Assembly (NCBI GenBank): GCA_021157525.1 | Contig: JAGGWK010000011.1 | Location: 1 to 37,125 of the forward strand | Source: Candidatus Cloacimonadota bacterium | GTDB taxonomy: Bacteria; Cloacimonadota; Cloacimonadia; Cloacimonadales; TCS61 | Reading direction: 5' to 3' | DNA length: 37,125 nucleotides | In this document: positions 7,967-16,158 of the stretch, piece by piece | Layout: each line of letters begins with the position of its first letter | Numbering within the stretch: position 1 is the first letter of the stretch | The notes under the pieces: model-generated | What the model saw: the letters and a program-made list of their open reading frames with translations, nothing else | Databases searched by the model: none | Told to the model about the DNA's origin: nothing | Made by a program: the position numbers and the translations under genes

Positions 7967-9709
7967 ATGCAAAGTTACAACGAGCACATTAAAAAACTCA
8001 TTCAATTGGGCAGGAAAAACCAGAAGCTGCTCACCTTTAAGCAGATTAACGAAGTTTTGCCCAACAGTCCCATTTATCTTGATAGAATTGAGGACATCAT
8101 CAACGATTTGGTGGAAGCAGGAATCGAGCTTATCGATGAGACCCAGAAGAAGGTCACCAAAAGAACCGTCTCGGTGAAGAAGTCTAAAGTTACCAGGAAA
8201 TTTCAGAATAAACGGTACTATGATGATCCCGTGCGGATGTATCTTGGGGAAATGGGACGCGTGCCGCTGTTGGATCGCGAAGGCGAAGTACGCATAGCGA
8301 AGAAGATCGAGAGCGGTCAGCGCTACGTTAACAAATATGTGTTTATGAGTGGCAGCACGTTGCGGGAGATGGAGAACTTCCTGCATCGGTTCCAGGAAAA
8401 GCGGGTAAAGATCGACCAGATTTTTAAAATTGAGTATGGTACCTGGATGGATAAATCTCAGGAAGCCCATCTGATAAATAAATTTGAGCAGGTTATCAAA
8501 AATACCGATGTCATATTTGAAGAGATCGGCGAAATGCTGGATGAAGCAGAGCTCGATCCTACCGGGCATCTTCTGGATCAGGAAGTGATAGACCGTAAGC
8601 GTGAGAAGATTCTGGGAATATTCGACCAGCTCACCTACAACGAGAAAATGCTCAAACGGATGGTGTACCGCATCAGAAGTTTGGTAGATCGCATCAAAGA
8701 CAGCCAGCGCTCTATCCGTCATCTGGCCAAGATCAAGCGGTATAACATAGACGAAATTTGCGCTTATGGCCGTCGTGCAGGCAAGTCTGATATCGATTAT
8801 CAGGAAGTGCACGAGGAAACCAAGGTAGATCCTGAAGTATTCATCGAAACGTTGCGGAAGATCAAGAATGCCCGGCGCAAGATACGGCGTGTTGAGCTGG
8901 AAACCCGCATGACAGCCGCCGAGATGCTGGATCTGCTGAAAGAGATCGAGCGCGGCGAAAAGATGAAAGAGCGCAGTAAAAATGAGATGATCGAAGCCAA
9001 CGTGCGTTTGGTGGTTAGCATCGCAAAACGCTACAACAACCGTGGTCTGGATTTCCTCGACCTCATTCAGGAAGGTAATACCGGTCTGATGCGGGCGGTG
9101 GAAAAATACGATTATCGCAAGGGCTTTAAGTTTAGTACCTATGCCACCTGGTGGATTCGCCAGGCCATCACTCGTGCCATCGCCGATCAGGCCCGCACCA
9201 TCCGCATCCCGGTACACATGATCGAATCGATAAACAAGGTGAAACGCGCCAGTCGCAAATTATTGCAGGAGCTTGGACGTGAGCCGCATCCGGAAGAAAT
9301 CGCTGTGAAGCTGGATTTGCCGGTGGATAAGATCAAGAGTATCCTGGCCATCACCAAAGAACCGGTTTCATTGGATAAACCTATCGGGCATGACGATGAA
9401 GACAGTTTGCTCGGTGATTTTATCGAAGATAAAGGTACCATTTCTCCAGAGCGAATGGCAGAGCGCACGTTACTTAAGAAGCAGATGGATGAGATTTTAC
9501 GCACCCTTACACCTCGTGAAGAACGGGTGATTCGGCTGCGTTTTGGTATCGACGACGGGTATCATCGTACTTTGGAAGAGGTAGGCAATATTTTCAGCGT
9601 TACTCGTGAGCGGATTCGACAGATTGAAGACAAGGCCCTGAAAAAACTACGTCATCCCACACGTGCCAACGTCTTGATGAAGTTTATCGACAACTTCAAT
9701 GTGCAGTAG
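7967..9709 (+). CDS. rpoD: RNA polymerase primary sigma factor (sigma-70)
   Basis: Housekeeping sigma factor of 580 residues. Region 1.1 is present at about 1-65, region 1.2 at 83-115 ([17 protein letters not shown]), a non-conserved insert at about 120-330, region 2 at about 340-412 with the -10 recognition stretch ([17 protein letters not shown]), region 3 at 415-490, and region 4 at 510-575 with the helix-turn-helix ([20 protein letters not shown]) that reads the -35 box. The ATG follows a strong AGGGGAGA site. Presence of the insert and region 1.1 argues for a primary sigma, not an alternative one. The operon probably ends here, because a TTGACA and then a tRNA gene follow. Confidence 0.97.
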
Positions 9710-9772: not shown

Positions 9773-9848
9773 GGGCCTATAGCTCAGTTGGTAGAGCTTC
9801 CGGCTCATAACCGGATGGTCAGAGGTTCGACTCCTCTTGGGCCCACCA
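9773..9848 (+). tRNA. tRNA-Met (CAT anticodon, elongator type)
   Basis: A 76-nt tRNA with encoded CCA (9845-9848 is ACCA including the discriminator). The acceptor stem GGGCCTA/TGGGCCC pairs fully with one G-U. The D arm is GCTC/GAGC, the anticodon stem is TCCGG/CCGGA around a CTCATAA loop with CAT at 9806-9808, and the T arm is AGAGG/CCTCT around TTCGACT. The paired first base (G1-C72) rules out a typical initiator. CAT could also be a lysidine-modified tRNA-Ile2, but the whole sequence resembles elongator tRNA-Met. A terminator hairpin follows at 9858. Confidence 0.93.
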
Positions 9849-9849
9849 G
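9826..9849 (+). repeat. Direct repeat copy 1 (tRNA 3' end, att-like)
   Basis: The last 23 bases of the tRNA-Met gene (T loop to CCA) plus one base are repeated exactly at 10244-10267, 418 bp downstream. An exact 24-bp repeat of a tRNA 3' end flanking a nuclease gene is the usual footprint of site-specific integration into a tRNA gene. Confidence 0.85.
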
Positions 9850-9857
9850 ATATTCAG

Positions 9858-9888
9858 CCGCCTTGCAACAGCAGGGTGGTTTTTTTTG
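9858..9888 (+). terminator. Intrinsic terminator of tRNA-Met
   Basis: A 9-bp stem (CCGCCTTGC at 9858-9866 with GCAGGGTGG at 9871-9879, two G-U pairs, AACA loop) is followed by eight T. It ends only three bases before the ribosome binding site of the GIY-YIG gene. Confidence 0.85.
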
Positions 9889-9901
9889 TCAGGAGGGTTG
9901 T

Positions 9902-10177
9902 ATGGTTTACCTGTATGTTCTTCAAGGAACCATCAAGCGCTACATCGGTATCACCAACGACATCAAGCGCAGAATGGCAGAGCACAAAGCCAAAAGCTCC
10001 AAAGGGAGCCGGGTGATTGGAGAATTTTCGCTTTTGATGGTAGAGGAATATCCGGATTATGTAACAGCGCGACAGCGTGAGAAGTATCTCAAATCCGGTG
10101 CTGGCAGACGTTGGTTGAGGAACCTGGCGAGTGATCAGAGTCCACCCCTTTCTGCGGATGCAGAAACGGGCGGATAA
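9902..10177 (+). CDS. Small GIY-YIG nuclease-superfamily protein
   Basis: A 91-residue single-domain protein of the YhbQ/UPF0213-like GIY-YIG group. The two motif halves are YLYVLQ (residues 3-8) and RYIGITND (13-20). The expected downstream arginine and histidine are in KRRMAEH (23-29). A glutamate follows near EKYLK (58-62), and the family-typical GRRWLRNL is at about 66-73. The last 18 residues (SDQSPPLSADAETGG region) look unrelated to the family and read into the tRNA remnant, so the C-terminus may have been extended by recombination. The ATG at 9902 has a strong AGGAGG site (9891-9896); the frame is open further upstream through the tRNA, which is not credible coding. It lies between an intact tRNA and a partial copy of it, suggesting a mobile or homing origin. 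Confidence 0.85.
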   Translation: MVYLYVLQGTIKRYIGITNDIKRRMAEHKAKSSKGSRVIGEFSLLMVEEYPDYVTARQREKYLKSGAGRRWLRNLASDQSPPLSADAETGG

Positions 10178-10189
10178 AGCTGCGCATCC

Positions 10190-10264
10190 AACCGATGGTC
10201 AGATGCTTGTGCGCACGATTTCCCGCAGGGAAATGGCGGCGCATTCGACTCCTCTTGGGCCCAC
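10190..10264 (+). pseudogene. tRNA-Met remnant interrupted by about 40 bp
   Basis: Positions 10190-10203 (AACCGATGGTCAGA) match the anticodon-stem 3' strand and variable loop of the intact tRNA with one base missing. Positions 10244-10264 match the T loop, T stem 3' strand and acceptor 3' strand through CCA. Between them lie about 40 unrelated bases that replace the 5' strand of the T stem and hold a perfect palindrome (ATTTCCC GCA GGGAAAT, 10218-10234) and GTGCGCAC (10209-10216). No convincing 5' half of a tRNA precedes it, so this is not a functional tRNA. Confidence 0.75.
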
Positions 10265-10267
10265 CAG
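10244..10267 (+). repeat. Direct repeat copy 2 (tRNA 3' end, att-like)
   Basis: Exact 24-bp copy of 9826-9849. It is the outer boundary of the cassette containing the GIY-YIG gene. Confidence 0.85.
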
Positions 10268-10306: not shown

Positions 10307-10329
10307 AAAGCCGCTCTATGAGCGGCTTT
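10307..10329. terminator. Hairpin between convergent genes, probable bidirectional terminator
   Basis: A 9-bp perfect stem (AAAGCCGCT at 10307-10315 with AGCGGCTTT at 10321-10329), loop CTATG. The T tract is short on both strands (TTTA on plus, TTTATTTG on minus). It separates the plus-strand GIY-YIG cassette from the minus-strand C25 protein gene. Confidence 0.6.
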
Positions 10330-10357: not shown

Positions 10358-10427
10358 TATTTCATAAGGAAGGAAACGTTTCCCCGACACTTCCGCATCG
10401 GGGCGAAATTCCCTTATTTCATAAGGA
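10358..10427 (-). repeat. 13-bp direct repeat around the C25 protein stop codon
   Basis: TATTTCATAAGGA occurs at 10358-10370 and 10415-10427. The second copy contains the last codons (Leu-Met-Lys-stop) of the C25 protein; the first copy reads Leu-Met-Lys-stop again in the space beyond. Between them lie CCCCGA/TCGGGG (10382-10387 with 10398-10403) and the palindrome GGAAACGTTTCC (10372-10383). This may be the leftover tail of another sorting-domain gene. Confidence 0.5.
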
Positions 10428-13400
10428 TCATTTTTTTCGTCGAAGTAAATTTACCAGCACGCATCCTGTAGAAATAGATACCGCTGCCAGCAGTGCGATT
10501 ATGGTCATCATTACCATTCCAGGTTACGGTATGATAGGTTGCATCCATCATGCCGTTTACAAGGGTGCGTACTTTTTCACCTTTTACGTTATACACATCG
10601 ATGCGAACATTGCCCGGTTCACTCAGAGCAAAGCGAATCTCTGTGGTGGGGTTGAAAGGATTGGGATAGTTACCCATTAAGGCTGTAGCCACAGGCACAA
10701 GCGGCGTGGGAGCATCAGTGTGATCCAGGGTAACGCTGTTGGAAGGATCAGATTCAAACTGATCGCTGTAAATGGCTGTCACATAATAGGTATATGTGCC
10801 GGTGGGAACGTTTGCATCCACATAGGTAAGCTCTAATGTAGTGCCCAACGAAGAGCCATCACGATACACCGAATAGCCGGTAATAGCACGGTTTGCTACA
10901 GGTGCATCCCACGAACAGATGATGTCTGAACTGGCAGGGCCTTGGGATACTGCATTGAAGTTCTGAGGTGCAGACAATACAACCGTAATGGTATCGGTAT
11001 TGGATGGCATCGAAAGGCCTTCATCATACACAGCGACCACGTAGTAGCTATAATCTCCTGCTGGCAGTTCGCCATCTAAGAAGGTTGTTACTGCGGCGTC
11101 TGTCTGGCCTATCAACAGGCTATTGCGATACACCTGATATTCGGTGAGGGCCCTGGTGTTATCTGCATCCTTGCCAGTAGAGCGGGGTATCTTTTTTTGT
11201 ATGGATGCAGTAAATCCTGTTGCTTCAGCTGTGGTTTGAGGTGCATCCCAGGAGAGAGAGACGTCGTTTGCTACAGCATTTGCCACCAGATTTTGTGGTG
11301 GGTTGAGGGGAAGCATTGCATCAAGAGTGATGTTCAGGTTTGTGGTTTGTCCCTGAGTCACCGTGATATTTGGATAGGATGCGGGTTGGTATCCGGCAAG
11401 GGTCGCCGTAACTTCATATACGCCGGGAGTTGCAACCAGGGTATAGCTGCCGTCTGCCGCCGGGCTGGTAGTAAAGCTATCGGCGGAGATTACAACGTCT
11501 TCCACGTTTCCAGCGCTACCACTCAGGGTTACATCGCCAGAGATATAGCCCAGAGTTCCGCCACTGCCACCGCCCAGGGTGACGTCATCCACATACCAGT
11601 AGTTAATGTTGAAGGAGTTGCCATAAAAAGACCAGGCGATCTGGAAAGTTGCCGAGCCTACGTCAGGGGTTGTGATATCTTCAGTCACCACTTCCGGTCC
11701 GATATTTCCGTTGGGATTTATCGACAAAACGGTGTTCCAGTTCTGGCCATCACTGGTAGTTTCTACCCGAAGTTCATAGTCACCGTTATAGTCATTTATC
11801 ATGTGCTTAAATTCCAGAGCAAGGCTTTGAGAGCCCAGAGTGTTAATCACAGGAGAAATCAGACGCTGAGTTGCCGTAGTAGAGGGGCTCCAGTTAAATT
11901 CTGCTTCTGGTGCCGTACCGCCGGCATTGTTATCATTTCCCCCTTGCCAGTTGTTCCCGCCGGAGGTTGTCCAGCCGGTGGGTGGGAAGGTGTCGAAGTG
12001 TTCTTCCAGGGCTACGGGTACCTGAGAAATGGTAATGTTAGCGGCTCCTGAAGCGGTGTAATTGAAATCGCTGCTCAGATCCCAGTTGAGTGGAATCGTC
12101 GTTCCCACAGGTGCATTACTAGCAGCGGTAACGCTGATAATGGCTGTGTTTATGCCAGACGCTGGAATATTCCCCAGGGTGTAGGTTGGATCGTTGATGG
12201 TGAGATATCCCGATGTTGTAGCGATGGAGAACTGGGAGCCATAGGTTGTTGCAGATCCGATGTTTTCCAGGGAGATAAGCAGGTCTGCGGTTTCTCCGGG
12301 ATCCAGGATATTGTTGGCGCCATCATCCACCAGCACCGAATAGAGTTGAATATTGGGAGCATGAACCTCAATTGCTGAGGTGTATGTCCACGTGTCCTGA
12401 TCGCAGGTAACTTGAATTTCCATGGCGGCAATGTGGCCATCCGGGCAATCTTCTGCTATGGCAATGCCGATAGACTGGAGGCTGGATGACTGTGCACCAC
12501 CAGCAACATTATTGAAGCTTACCGCACTACCGGTGAAGGTTATGTAGGGATCGGTGGCGCTGATGGTCGCGCTGACGTTTGTGGCCATATCCTCGCCCAG
12601 ATTATTCAGGGTAAGAAACATATCCATTTCTTCTGCATATTCAGGGATGCCATTGCCATTTCCCACAGTTTCAATGAAGATCAGTTCGCCCAATACCAGG
12701 TAGGGCTCTTGCATCGGGATGGGAGGGCCGGTAAAGAGAATGGCGGTGCCATTGGTAATGGGTTTTGCCGCTGTGGGATATTCATTATTAAAGGTATATT
12801 GAATGCCACGGGTTGCAGTGTGATCTTCCAGGCCAACAGTGCTGTAGCATCCATGGCTTACATGATAGCTGAAGTAATCTCCCTGATCCACATTATTAAA
12901 GACCTTATACTGGAAGAGGATTTCGTTATCTCCATTGGATGTAGGGTAGTAAGCGGTGTCATAGATGATTACCTGGAAGGTTTCTTCCGCATCGTTGTAA
13001 TCATTGTGCATTTCACTCCACTCAACGATGTAGCGGTGTAAAGCAACATCGTTATATACCACCACGGTGCCGCCCATGTTTTTCAGATCATCCCAGAAGG
13101 GAGCGATGATGGGTGAAGGGCCGCCAGCACCGGGGATGATCCAGTTCATATAGGAGCGGTTATCGGTATCACCAGGAGACATCCAGCCATTGGAGCAGAT
13201 GGTCATCTCATCGTAGTTTTCACCATAAAATTGCAGGTTAAAGGGTAAATCAACATGCTGGATAACGCCTTGGTCACCGGTATCGTTCATGCTAAGTACC
13301 TGTCCGGCACCACCCTGACTGGGGGCGATTTCAGCCCAGTTGTAGGTAGGTGCTTTTATATAGGAAACGTCGCCGTCATCATAGCAATAGTAGCCATAGG

Positions 13401-16119
13401 CATCAGGGCCCAGTGGGTCTGTGATGCTTACTTCACCAACTTCAATCTGCAGAGGAACGGTGTCGTTGTAACCCAGGTCGTCGGTGAGCTGCAGATCCAG
13501 TACAAACTGTGTGCCGGGGATGATCTGTGCATTGGCCGTGATTTCGAAGGTATTTACCGTATTGGAGCCATAGGCGCCTGGCAGGATGTTTGTGAAATAG
13601 CCGTCTGCATCATCTATGGTAATGGCGGTATCATTGCTTATCAAAGTGCCGGTAACAGCGCTGATGGCAACGGTTCCGACATTTTGTAGAGTGACAGTCA
13701 TCTGTACCGTGTCACCAGGATCAAGGATGTTGTTACCGCCAATAACGGTGTAATCTGTGGCAGAGAGGTAGGCACCATACGTGTCCACATAGATTTTGGT
13801 ATTCCAGGCATTGGCTGCGCTGTCTTGGATAAGTAGATCAAAATCCAGGACTGTGCCCCCCAATAGAGAGCCATCCACGGAGAAGACAAAGGCATCCTGC
13901 GAACTGGCGGAAGTGCCGGGAGCTATGGTGCCAAAGGTTTCAGCATCATCACTGATGGTGATGGCCGGATTTGTGGTTGAAAGGGTGGCTGTAACGCCGA
14001 CAACCGAGCTGAGACCGAAGTTTTTCAGGTTTATGGGCATCTGAATGGTTTCGCCGGGATTTACCATACCGTTGTTGTTTCCCATAGAAGCACCGTTTGT
14101 GTCGTCATCAATGGTGAAGTCGTACACATCGACATAACTTTGAGCCTGGCCGATGGTGATGCTGCCCAGATGAGGTGCGTAGTTGTGGCTGGTAACGGTG
14201 AGGGTTGCGGTGCCGCTGGCTGTGGTTGCTATGGGCAACACAATTTCGCCGTTCCCATCGGTAAGACCAGTAGCATAGACGTCGTCATCTCCCAGGAGAA
14301 CGGTGACCCATGCGCCGGCAACTGGATTACCAAAGGGACCGGTAACGGTTACCGGGAGGTAGTTTGTTCCCTGCGCAACGGTGCTGTTGTAGGATACGTT
14401 CATGGTCTCGGGGGTATCCGTCCATACTTCCATACCGGGGTCGCCCATGAGGTTATTCCAATACATGAAGTGAGTGGTGTGGTTATTGGGGTTGCCCGGG
14501 TAGGTTTGATGCATATGCACCTTACCAAAGGCCAAAGCGCCACCCATGTTGTAAATGTCGTTGGCAAAGATTGCCTGGTAGGTTCCGCCGGAAACCGCAT
14601 TGTTAAAGCAGGTGTGGGTGGAGCTGGTAACGGTTCCGATGGCGGCGATAGCACCTTTGGGAGTGCTGGGTGTACCAGCCCGGAGAAACACTTCGTTACG
14701 GGCTTCGCTGTAGCTGTCGAAGTTACCTGTGGCGCAAGTGATAAACACGGCAACCGGCAATTTATAGCCGTTTGTCATGGCATTGATGTTGCTTACATCC
14801 CAGCCACTCATACCGATGTAACCACGATAATTGAAGTAGGAAACTCCAGCATTCAGGGCCGCAGCCATCTGGCTTTCGAAGGGGCTATTGTACACTTCTG
14901 TGCATTGGAAGGTGGGGTCATAGTTTTCTATCAGTTGTTTGATCTGCACGTTTGTGTCTATGGTTGATTGACCCGAAGAGGAGGGATCACCCACCAGCAG
15001 TGCTTTGTTATACCAGTCTGTAGCCCCCATAAAGGGTTGTTTTTCATAGTTGAGGATTTTGGAAACGATGGTCTGTAGCTCGAAGGTTGTGTCTATGGAT
15101 AGACGTCCGATAAACACTTCAGGCAGGAGGTCTGTACCATCAAGCAAAGTGTAATAATGGTCGCCATAACCCTGGTCTATAGAGTGAGTAGGGATGGAGA
15201 GAGAGCCCTCTGCGTCACCCACCAGCATGATAAAATCCGGTGCGTTATCCCAGGTGTCATAGGCTGTCTGGATGTAGCTTTTTATCGCGGTATCGGATGT
15301 CCCTGTTTCCAGCGTGGAAGCCATATGAACTTCAAAGCCCTTCTGGTGTTTCCAATCTGCCAGCACCTGCAGGATGGCCTGCACATCGGCATTGTTTGGG
15401 TAAATCATCAGGTAACAGGGGGGATCGAAGTCATCATCTTCCCGTGTATTTGTGTAGTTTATAGCGGCAGACTTCATAAAAGTATCGAAGGTCTTTGCCG
15501 AGGAATGAGCTGTGGTGATGGTATTCTCGCCGCCACGTCCCTGCACGGTAACATCCACATTCACTTCGGTGGTAATGGTTACTGACCTGGTTTGGGGATC
15601 GTATTGGAAGGGATTGATGGTAACGAAGACCACGCGATAATCCCGCATAATCATGGGCTGAGAAACTTCTACTATCTGCTGGGGATAAACGTGACCAGTA
15701 GCATAATAGTCTGCATCCATGGCAAAAGGTAATTCCTTTGGATCGCTTTCCACCTGCAATGGTTGAGCAGGATAGGGTATCGTGTTTTCTAATATCTGCT
15801 GCTGAGACGAGCGAATATATGTACTTACCTGCCCCTCATTGGGAATGATAATCATGCGTGAAAACTGGGGAAATCCCGGTTTGCCGATGGTGAGCAATTC
15901 GCCCTCATCGGCATAGGTAAAGACGGTGAACTCTGTTCCTTCTGCTTTCCGGGTTTCAGACTGGTATCCATCCAGTCGAAAATGAAGAGATGAAGTTGAA
16001 TAATCGGCTTGAGTTGACTCAAACACAAGGCTCGACACTTCATCATTAACTGCTTGCCAGGATGCCATCAGACTTCCAGCAAGGATAACACATAGTAACG
16101 CTAATACAATTTTTTTCAC
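10414..16119 (-). CDS. Giant secreted C25 (gingipain-like) protein with type A sorting domain
   Basis: A predicted cell-surface or secreted protein of 1,901 residues. A signal peptide at 1-19 is followed by a gingipain-type propeptide region (about 40-210) and a peptidase C25 fold (about 225-590). The catalytic cysteine is visible as ITCATG (C462), but the position where gingipains carry the histidine (YTGHG type) reads YRGYIG (Tyr434), so activity is uncertain. Then follow about four CARDB-like beta repeats with NILDPGE signatures, a nidogen-like module, a jelly-roll adhesion module of the choice-of-anchor kind (EHFDTFPPTGW start), a carboxypeptidase-regulatory-like unit, two Fn3 domains and a C-terminal Por-type sorting domain (NYPNPFNPTTEI to GIYFYRM). 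The GTG at 16119 is chosen: it follows AGGGTGG and gives a clean signal peptide; ATG at 16149 is the alternative. It is last in a minus-strand cluster of secreted proteins. Confidence 0.88.
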   Translation of the reverse strand: MKKIVLALLCVILAGSLMASWQAVNDEVSSLVFESTQADYSTSSLHFRLDGYQSETRKAEGTEFTVFTYADEGELLTIGKPGFPQFSRMIIIPNEGQVSTYIRSSQQQILENTIPYPAQPLQVESDPKELPFAMDADYYATGHVYPQQIVEVSQPMIMRDYRVVFVTINPFQYDPQTRSVTITTEVNVDVTVQGRGGENTITTAHSSAKTFDTFMKSAAINYTNTREDDDFDPPCYLMIYPNNADVQAILQVLADWKHQKGFEVHMASTLETGTSDTAIKSYIQTAYDTWDNAPDFIMLVGDAEGSLSIPTHSIDQGYGDHYYTLLDGTDLLPEVFIGRLSIDTTFELQTIVSKILNYEKQPFMGATDWYNKALLVGDPSSSGQSTIDTNVQIKQLIENYDPTFQCTEVYNSPFESQMAAALNAGVSYFNYRGYIGMSGWDVSNINAMTNGYKLPVAVFITCATGNFDSYSEARNEVFLRAGTPSTPKGAIAAIGTVTSSTHTCFNNAVSGGTYQAIFANDIYNMGGALAFGKVHMHQTYPGNPNNHTTHFMYWNNLMGDPGMEVWTDTPETMNVSYNSTVAQGTNYLPVTVTGPFGNPVAGAWVTVLLGDDDVYATGLTDGNGEIVLPIATTASGTATLTVTSHNYAPHLGSITIGQAQSYVDVYDFTIDDDTNGASMGNNNGMVNPGETIQMPINLKNFGLSSVVGVTATLSTTNPAITISDDAETFGTIAPGTSASSQDAFVFSVDGSLLGGTVLDFDLLIQDSAANAWNTKIYVDTYGAYLSATDYTVIGGNNILDPGDTVQMTVTLQNVGTVAISAVTGTLISNDTAITIDDADGYFTNILPGAYGSNTVNTFEITANAQIIPGTQFVLDLQLTDDLGYNDTVPLQIEVGEVSITDPLGPDAYGYYCYDDGDVSYIKAPTYNWAEIAPSQGGAGQVLSMNDTGDQGVIQHVDLPFNLQFYGENYDEMTICSNGWMSPGDTDNRSYMNWIIPGAGGPSPIIAPFWDDLKNMGGTVVVYNDVALHRYIVEWSEMHNDYNDAEETFQVIIYDTAYYPTSNGDNEILFQYKVFNNVDQGDYFSYHVSHGCYSTVGLEDHTATRGIQYTFNNEYPTAAKPITNGTAILFTGPPIPMQEPYLVLGELIFIETVGNGNGIPEYAEEMDMFLTLNNLGEDMATNVSATISATDPYITFTGSAVSFNNVAGGAQSSSLQSIGIAIAEDCPDGHIAAMEIQVTCDQDTWTYTSAIEVHAPNIQLYSVLVDDGANNILDPGETADLLISLENIGSATTYGSQFSIATTSGYLTINDPTYTLGNIPASGINTAIISVTAASNAPVGTTIPLNWDLSSDFNYTASGAANITISQVPVALEEHFDTFPPTGWTTSGGNNWQGGNDNNAGGTAPEAEFNWSPSTTATQRLISPVINTLGSQSLALEFKHMINDYNGDYELRVETTSDGQNWNTVLSINPNGNIGPEVVTEDITTPDVGSATFQIAWSFYGNSFNINYWYVDDVTLGGGSGGTLGYISGDVTLSGSAGNVEDVVISADSFTTSPAADGSYTLVATPGVYEVTATLAGYQPASYPNITVTQGQTTNLNITLDAMLPLNPPQNLVANAVANDVSLSWDAPQTTAEATGFTASIQKKIPRSTGKDADNTRALTEYQVYRNSLLIGQTDAAVTTFLDGELPAGDYSYYVVAVYDEGLSMPSNTDTITVVLSAPQNFNAVSQGPASSDIICSWDAPVANRAITGYSVYRDGSSLGTTLELTYVDANVPTGTYTYYVTAIYSDQFESDPSNSVTLDHTDAPTPLVPVATALMGNYPNPFNPTTEIRFALSEPGNVRIDVYNVKGEKVRTLVNGMMDATYHTVTWNGNDDHNRTAGSGIYFYRMRAGKFTSTKKMILMK

Positions 16120-16158
16120 ATTAACCACCCTTTCATTATTAATATACATTTAGCTTTA

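Follow-up and report, generated by a model that had tools for sequence, protein, structure and literature searches.

A stretch of 37,125 nt from a Candidatus Cloacimonadota genome (assembly GCA_021157525.1, contig JAGGWK010000011.1, forward strand; hereafter the window) contains a unit that is best explained as a miniature homing-type mobile element of ∼418 bp residing in tRNA and tmRNA genes, a reading to which we give a probability of about 0.68. It appears likely that such units represent a little-noticed kind of mobile DNA aimed at a universally conserved part of tRNA. In the open-access literature searched, which did not cover most subscription journals, we found no account of such elements on chromosomes.

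The anatomy of the unit is plain from the window locus, where all features described are on the + strand unless stated. The order is rpoD, an intact tRNA-Met, a 91-aa stand-alone GIY-YIG gene and a second copy of tRNA nt 54–76. The rpoD-type sigma factor (7967–9709, from the ORF list) is the conserved left neighbour of the tRNA-Met locus, its end lying upstream of tRNA-Met in several relatives, both empty and filled. The intact tRNA-Met(cat) (9773–9848; ARAGORN, with 72.6 bits in Rfam), which we interpret as the restored host tRNA on the attL-like side, was not found in a further copy in the window genome; the sole other match, at 76%, overlaps a tRNA-Val gene. Its nt 54–76, from T54 to CCA (9826–9848), form the left end of the inferred unit, being an element-borne copy that is repeated exactly and whose 3' flank differs from that of empty sites. 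It is followed by a terminator-like hairpin with a T-run (9858–9887) and a ribosome-binding-site-like AGGAGG (9891–9896) placed 5 nt before the ATG, both read from the sequence, and then by the GIY-YIG ORF (9902–10177), whose C-terminal codons overlap the tRNA-derived T-stem and the first hairpin of the right end.

The second, altered tRNA 3' portion begins with TGATCAGAG (10132–10140), which on comparison with the tRNA is an 8/9 copy of nt 44–52 (variable loop and 5' T-stem), and continues with hairpin P1 (10141–10174), a conserved TAAAGC (10175–10180) whose AAGC can pair with the GCTT 3' of P2, hairpin P2 (10184–10206) and hairpin P3 (10210–10243). P3 abuts T54 of the displaced original tRNA nt 54–76 (10244–10266; attR-like side), an exact repeat whose 3' flank matches empty sites. 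The terminator-like hairpin of the host tRNA (10307–10329) now comes after the displaced copy; one almost identical to it stands behind tRNA-Met in an empty-site relative (G032). Convergent with the element, the minus strand at 10414–16149 encodes a 1911-aa protein with a C-terminal sorting signal of the NPFNPTTEIRF type. No recombinase gene was found in the 418-bp unit, the GIY ORF being the only supported gene between the repeats. Because 418 bp leaves no room for a recombinase, the criterion for an integrative element with a tyrosine or serine recombinase is not met. A group I intron core was likewise without a match, both in the window region and in the 12 related loci examined.

A first-pass annotation, made from sequence alone, had claimed that the last 24 bases of the tRNA-Met recur exactly 418 bp downstream, with a small GIY-YIG gene between the repeats. 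Both claims held: the 24-mer at 9826–9849, comprising tRNA nt 54–76 and one flanking G, is repeated at 10244–10267, and the gene product matches PF01541. Its near copy of the anticodon-stem/variable-loop segment also held, in that GCGCATCCAACCGATGGTCAGA within ∼10182–10203 resembles GCTCATAACCGGATGGTCAGA of the tRNA; only 1 of 2000 shuffles was as good, and chance is thus an improbable source of the likeness. This anticodon-arm-like segment sits in P2 and shows no conservation among relatives. What it called ‘about 40 unrelated bases’ is mostly hairpin P3 of a conserved three-hairpin module. Its proposal of a minimal mobile or homing-like element of under 500 bp is supported, whereas its alternative, the scar of a larger element, is not, all closely examined loci carrying a one-gene unit of ∼400 bp. 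Its suggestion that the nuclease may target the tRNA gene remains an inference. It had missed the tRNA-derived TGATCAGAG, the structured right end and the T-loop breakpoint.

The window protein fulfils the criteria for the GIY-YIG superfamily, with a PF01541 match (E = 1e-11) and the conserved catalytic residues (Tyr, Tyr/Gly, Arg and Glu); Y5, Y14, G16, R23/R24 and E60 are invariant in the protein alignment. In five pairs of relatives dN/dS was 0.07–0.15, and values of about 0.1 show that the gene is under purifying selection. Neither a domain other than GIY-YIG nor any known DNA-binding domain was recognized in the window protein, and the nearest solved chain is UPF0213 BH0048 (1zg2, E = 6e-4). 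Close homologues were absent from the phage and plasmid collections; tblastn against the phage collection gave no match at E ≤ 1e-3, although no profile comparison with SegB itself was made, and a search of viral contigs gave three weak or partial matches. The tree of these GIY proteins follows tRNA type in part (a Val pair and a Met clade), with switching, and is poorly supported, the protein being of only 80 aa.

In the second tRNA copy, nt 52 and T54 of the T-loop are typically separated by a module of the form P1-TAAAGC-P2-TTG-P3. In 26 extracted right ends, P1 is CCCGCC-N3-GGCGGG or a compensated version of it, and is followed by TAAAGC, P2, GCTTG and then P3, which is TGCGCC-N3-GGCGCA or a compensated version and which, in nearly all the loci aligned, directly precedes the second TTCRA (T54). 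The breakpoint is thereby shown to be precise, and its position in the T-loop sequence GTTCRANTC meets the criterion of insertion at or near a conserved target. Structural covariation is also shown. Over 21 sequences, pairing holds in 96.3% of cells of the drawn structure, and both-side changes in P1 and P3 occur in 38 cells as compared with 12.0 in shuffles, while slid structures are only about 40% paired; RNAalifold recovers P1 and P3 unaided. The nine nucleotides left of P1 match nt 44–52 of the tRNA at the same locus at a mean of 7.3 of nine positions (n = 20 loci), as compared with 4.67 under shuffled pairings, none of 20000 of which was as high as observed. Since P1 is preceded by a copy of nt 44–52 and P3 is followed by T54, the module stands in place of nt 53 in a local tRNA copy.

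A covariance model of the module gave strong matches almost exclusively at such loci; a few (L209, L228) lack a GIY gene in the stretch available. The module had no Rfam match in the loci tested, and a lax threshold gave only weak chance matches near the right end. At Pro, Glu and His sites (L157, L158, L164, L175, L176 and L179) an additional hairpin, in many cases CCGCC-N3-GGCGGATAA-like, follows TTCRANTC in the displaced copies.

A search of 148 genomes gave close homologues (56–66%) in eight besides the window genome, all of the same family. Seven are found at the rpoD locus, after tRNA-Met sequence; the eighth (G060) is on a contig without an intact tRNA and has kept the 3' fragment after the gene. 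One genome (G013) has two tandem 395-bp units, another (G016) has one ORF-deleted and one ORF-bearing unit, and in a third (G001) the hairpin module interrupts even the tRNA-Met of the locus. Empty sites, with an intact tRNA-Met and no second copy, are common among the relatives. The 3' flank of copy 3 in G013 scores 178 against the empty site of G023, while copies 1 and 2 score 47; the corresponding scores for last and earlier copies are 120 and 27 in G059, 86 and at most 42 in G022, and 53 and 22 in the window. As the flank after the last copy matches empty sites and that after the first copy does not, or does so much less, it is the last copy that represents the original end, with the unit placed ahead of it. 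The flank comparison thus shows that the element brings its own tRNA 3' end and displaces that of the host. Patchy presence, together with empty cognate sites at the tRNA-Met locus, satisfies one of the criteria for a free-standing homing endonuclease element.

Recurrence of the unit is not confined to the relatives. A scan of 84,980 species genomes yielded 37 named loci encoding proteins with 43–68% identity to the window protein over the aligned stretch. Their phyla, named as in the genome records and mostly represented by metagenome-assembled genomes, number about a dozen: Cloacimonadota, Planctomycetota, Deltaproteobacteria (Desulfobacterota, Myxococcota), Zixibacteria, Hydrogenedentota, Lentisphaerota, Kiritimatiellota, Verrucomicrobiota, Sumerlaeota, Nitrospirota, Bacteroidota, Neomarinimicrobiota and Ignavibacteriota. 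All 37 loci adjoin tRNA or tmRNA genes or fragments, 28 of them next to a tRNA gene called by ARAGORN or a tmRNA identified with Rfam (some truncated at contig ends) and nine next to fragments. A tRNA was called nearby at 20 loci (Met, Glu, Val, Lys, Leu, Pro, Gly, His, Cys or Ser), and tmRNA was found at eight. Most have tRNA, GIY gene and interrupted 3' copy in that order on one strand; in a few (L169, L182 and L183) the order is reversed, with the altered copy first and the intact tRNA last. Wherever loci were examined closely, in many phyla and tRNAs, the unit is of ∼400 bp and has GIY as its one gene. The first-pass annotation had asked for empty sites in relatives and for genes of the same subfamily near tRNAs, and both were found. 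It would have been refuted by the same gene in place without a tRNA repeat, or by the gene at many sites never near tRNAs; neither was met.

More widely, 33 of 71 surveyed GIY-YIG genes from Cloacimonadota and other phyla are no more than 500 bp away from a tRNA gene or fragment, against our rough expectation of a few per cent (assuming about 45 tRNA genes per genome). The distant cases were picked by similarity ranking and are not an unbiased census. No Rfam RNA was present at twenty distant GIY loci without a tRNA, and not all GIY-YIG genes are therefore tRNA-linked. Distant subfamilies adjoin an altered tRNA copy in which the interruption falls in the anticodon loop or arm (Asn, Ser, Pro) or in the D-loop (Ser-gga), which suggests the possibility that GIY subfamilies differ in the tRNA arm used. 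The second GIY-YIG gene of the window genome (L114; G000:C17:43500-43730) is downstream of tRNA-Asp and has on either side a tRNA-Asp 3' fragment, two copies in all, with the T-arm interrupted by TCCCGACGAGTCGGGA.

A separate observation concerns a 16-nt palindrome, TCCGGCARYTGCCGGA, which is dispersed in Cloacimonadota (L082–L109 and other loci) in up to 80 copies per genome. It is found more often than by chance at the tips of longer hairpins (29 copies; mean stem score 2.9 versus 1.36, the maximum of 2000 re-pairings being 2.38), a terminator loop among them, and it interrupts tRNA anticodon loops; possibly it inserts into hairpin loops. Between rpoD and tRNA-Met, several genomes (loci L026, L031, L033 and L058) have extra 5' half-copies of tRNA-Met (nt 1–42) with the palindrome in the anticodon arm, and at L062, L076 and L113 GIY-YIG genes adjoin tRNA-Asn copies, some interrupted by it in the anticodon loop (37/38). 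We rejected the palindrome as a part of the element, as it is a dispersed repeat that is absent from the window genome.

We propose that the mobile unit would run from T54 of the T-loop through the element-borne tRNA 3' end, the terminator and the GIY-YIG gene to the three-hairpin right end. The nuclease would make its cut in a tRNA gene not yet occupied, at the T-loop (GTTCRANTC), which is universally conserved. Repair from a donor copy would install the unit, with homology provided by the T-stem common to both and by the 23 nt that extend from T54 to CCA. If an empty tRNA gene recombined with a donor and the two were joined within nt 54–76, the arrangement seen would be expected: an intact tRNA with its 5' part from the host and its 3' part from the element, followed by the unit and, behind the hairpins, by the displaced 3' end of the host. 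A T-loop cut by the nuclease would be its natural trigger. The element-borne 3' end would keep the tRNA functional, while the host 3' end would be pushed downstream behind the hairpins, in an interrupted T-loop that is presumably no longer recognized. T-loop cleavage, movement by break repair, promotion of inheritance by the cut and the role of the hairpins are all inferred, no cleavage or transposition having been observed.

Several points count against the homing reading. A protein consisting of hardly more than the domain leaves site specificity unexplained, and self-immunity is unexplained because the intact tRNA keeps the presumed target. No circular or donor form was seen and there was no phage or plasmid match, so that the vehicle between phyla is also unexplained. 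Finally, most loci come from metagenome-assembled genomes.

One rival reading is that the hairpin module rather than the protein sets specificity: transcribed, or extruded as single-stranded DNA, its flanks (the 5' half of the T-stem and the T-loop/acceptor) would direct the nuclease to the matching tRNA gene. In favour, the module is flanked on both sides, exactly at the junction, by sequence of its own host tRNA, its structure is conserved across phyla without an Rfam match in the tested loci, and the protein shows the GIY-YIG domain alone. However, the flanks may match merely as displaced tRNA, no transcription data stand behind the idea, and palindrome insertions are found without the gene too. 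We consider it unlikely. The same holds for its bolder form, in which widespread bacterial mini-elements would encode a domain-only GIY-YIG nuclease brought to tRNA and tmRNA genes by its own three-hairpin module with matching tRNA flanks, the module acting either as RNA or as single-stranded DNA in folded form; this would be homing guided by a nucleic acid, unrelated to IscB/TnpB.

We also doubt that a structure-specific (Slx1/UPF0213-like) GIY-YIG enzyme acts on DNA hairpin loops, such as tRNA arms and palindromes, the loci being debris of palindrome insertion and tandem duplication. The interruption of anticodon or D-loops beside distant GIY genes, the above-chance presence of the dispersed palindrome at hairpin tips and the nearest solved chain speak for it, but the window-type clade holds one exact breakpoint and one module in many phyla, too ordered for debris. 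Still less probable is a scar of a larger integrase-type element (prophage or ICE) at the tRNA 3' end with a leftover GIY gene. A repeated tRNA 3' end is the classical sign of attL and attR; nevertheless, GIY-only units with conserved right-end hairpins occur in many phyla and tRNAs, and no integrase-sized relative was seen. A host-serving gene, with the nuclease working on RNA or as a toxin and the interrupted tRNA copies serving as decoys or regulatory RNAs, would suit the strong purifying selection and conserved RNA-like folding, but is very improbable, since patchiness, empty sites in close relatives and the many tRNAs used fit a selfish element better.

If the homing reading is true, bacterial chromosomes across many phyla harbour mobile elements that are among the smallest to bear a gene, and which attack a universally conserved site in essential genes and yet leave those genes intact. 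It would also provide a compact nuclease (about 80–90 residues) of unexplained specificity together with a new structured nucleic acid, and would connect phage SegB, the introns of the tmRNA T-loop and the islands that integrate into tRNA genes by a common target, the T-loop.

UPF0213 and stand-alone Slx1-like proteins (1zg2; PMC1564403) share the minimal GIY-YIG domain without accessory domains, but tRNA-gene insertion is not described in the relevant passages of PMC1564403. SegB is a free-standing GIY-YIG homing endonuclease of phages T4/T6, without an intron, whose gene adjoins those of many different tRNAs (PMC13096335; Brok-Volchanskaya 2008, cited there). The T6 enzyme has been mapped to cut inside tRNA genes, 23 of 83 sites having the motif RAWTSGAAC, and tandem amplification of the tRNA locus depends on its activity (PMC13096335). 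By our own reading, the reverse complement of this motif, GTTCSAWTY, fits the T-loop. SegB is nevertheless a phage gene, and the relevant sections of PMC13096335 report neither 3'-end replacement nor a three-hairpin right end. Integrase-type islands and prophages in tRNA and tmRNA 3' ends likewise restore the gene with their own 3' end and displace the original; unlike them, the window-type element has no integrase and consists of ∼400 bp with a nuclease gene only. Group I introns in tmRNA interrupt the same T-loop in many phyla, and a few encode homing endonucleases, but they are self-splicing and these endonucleases are of the LAGLIDADG type (PMC11915505), whereas in the window element it is a duplicated 3' end, and not splicing, that restores the gene.
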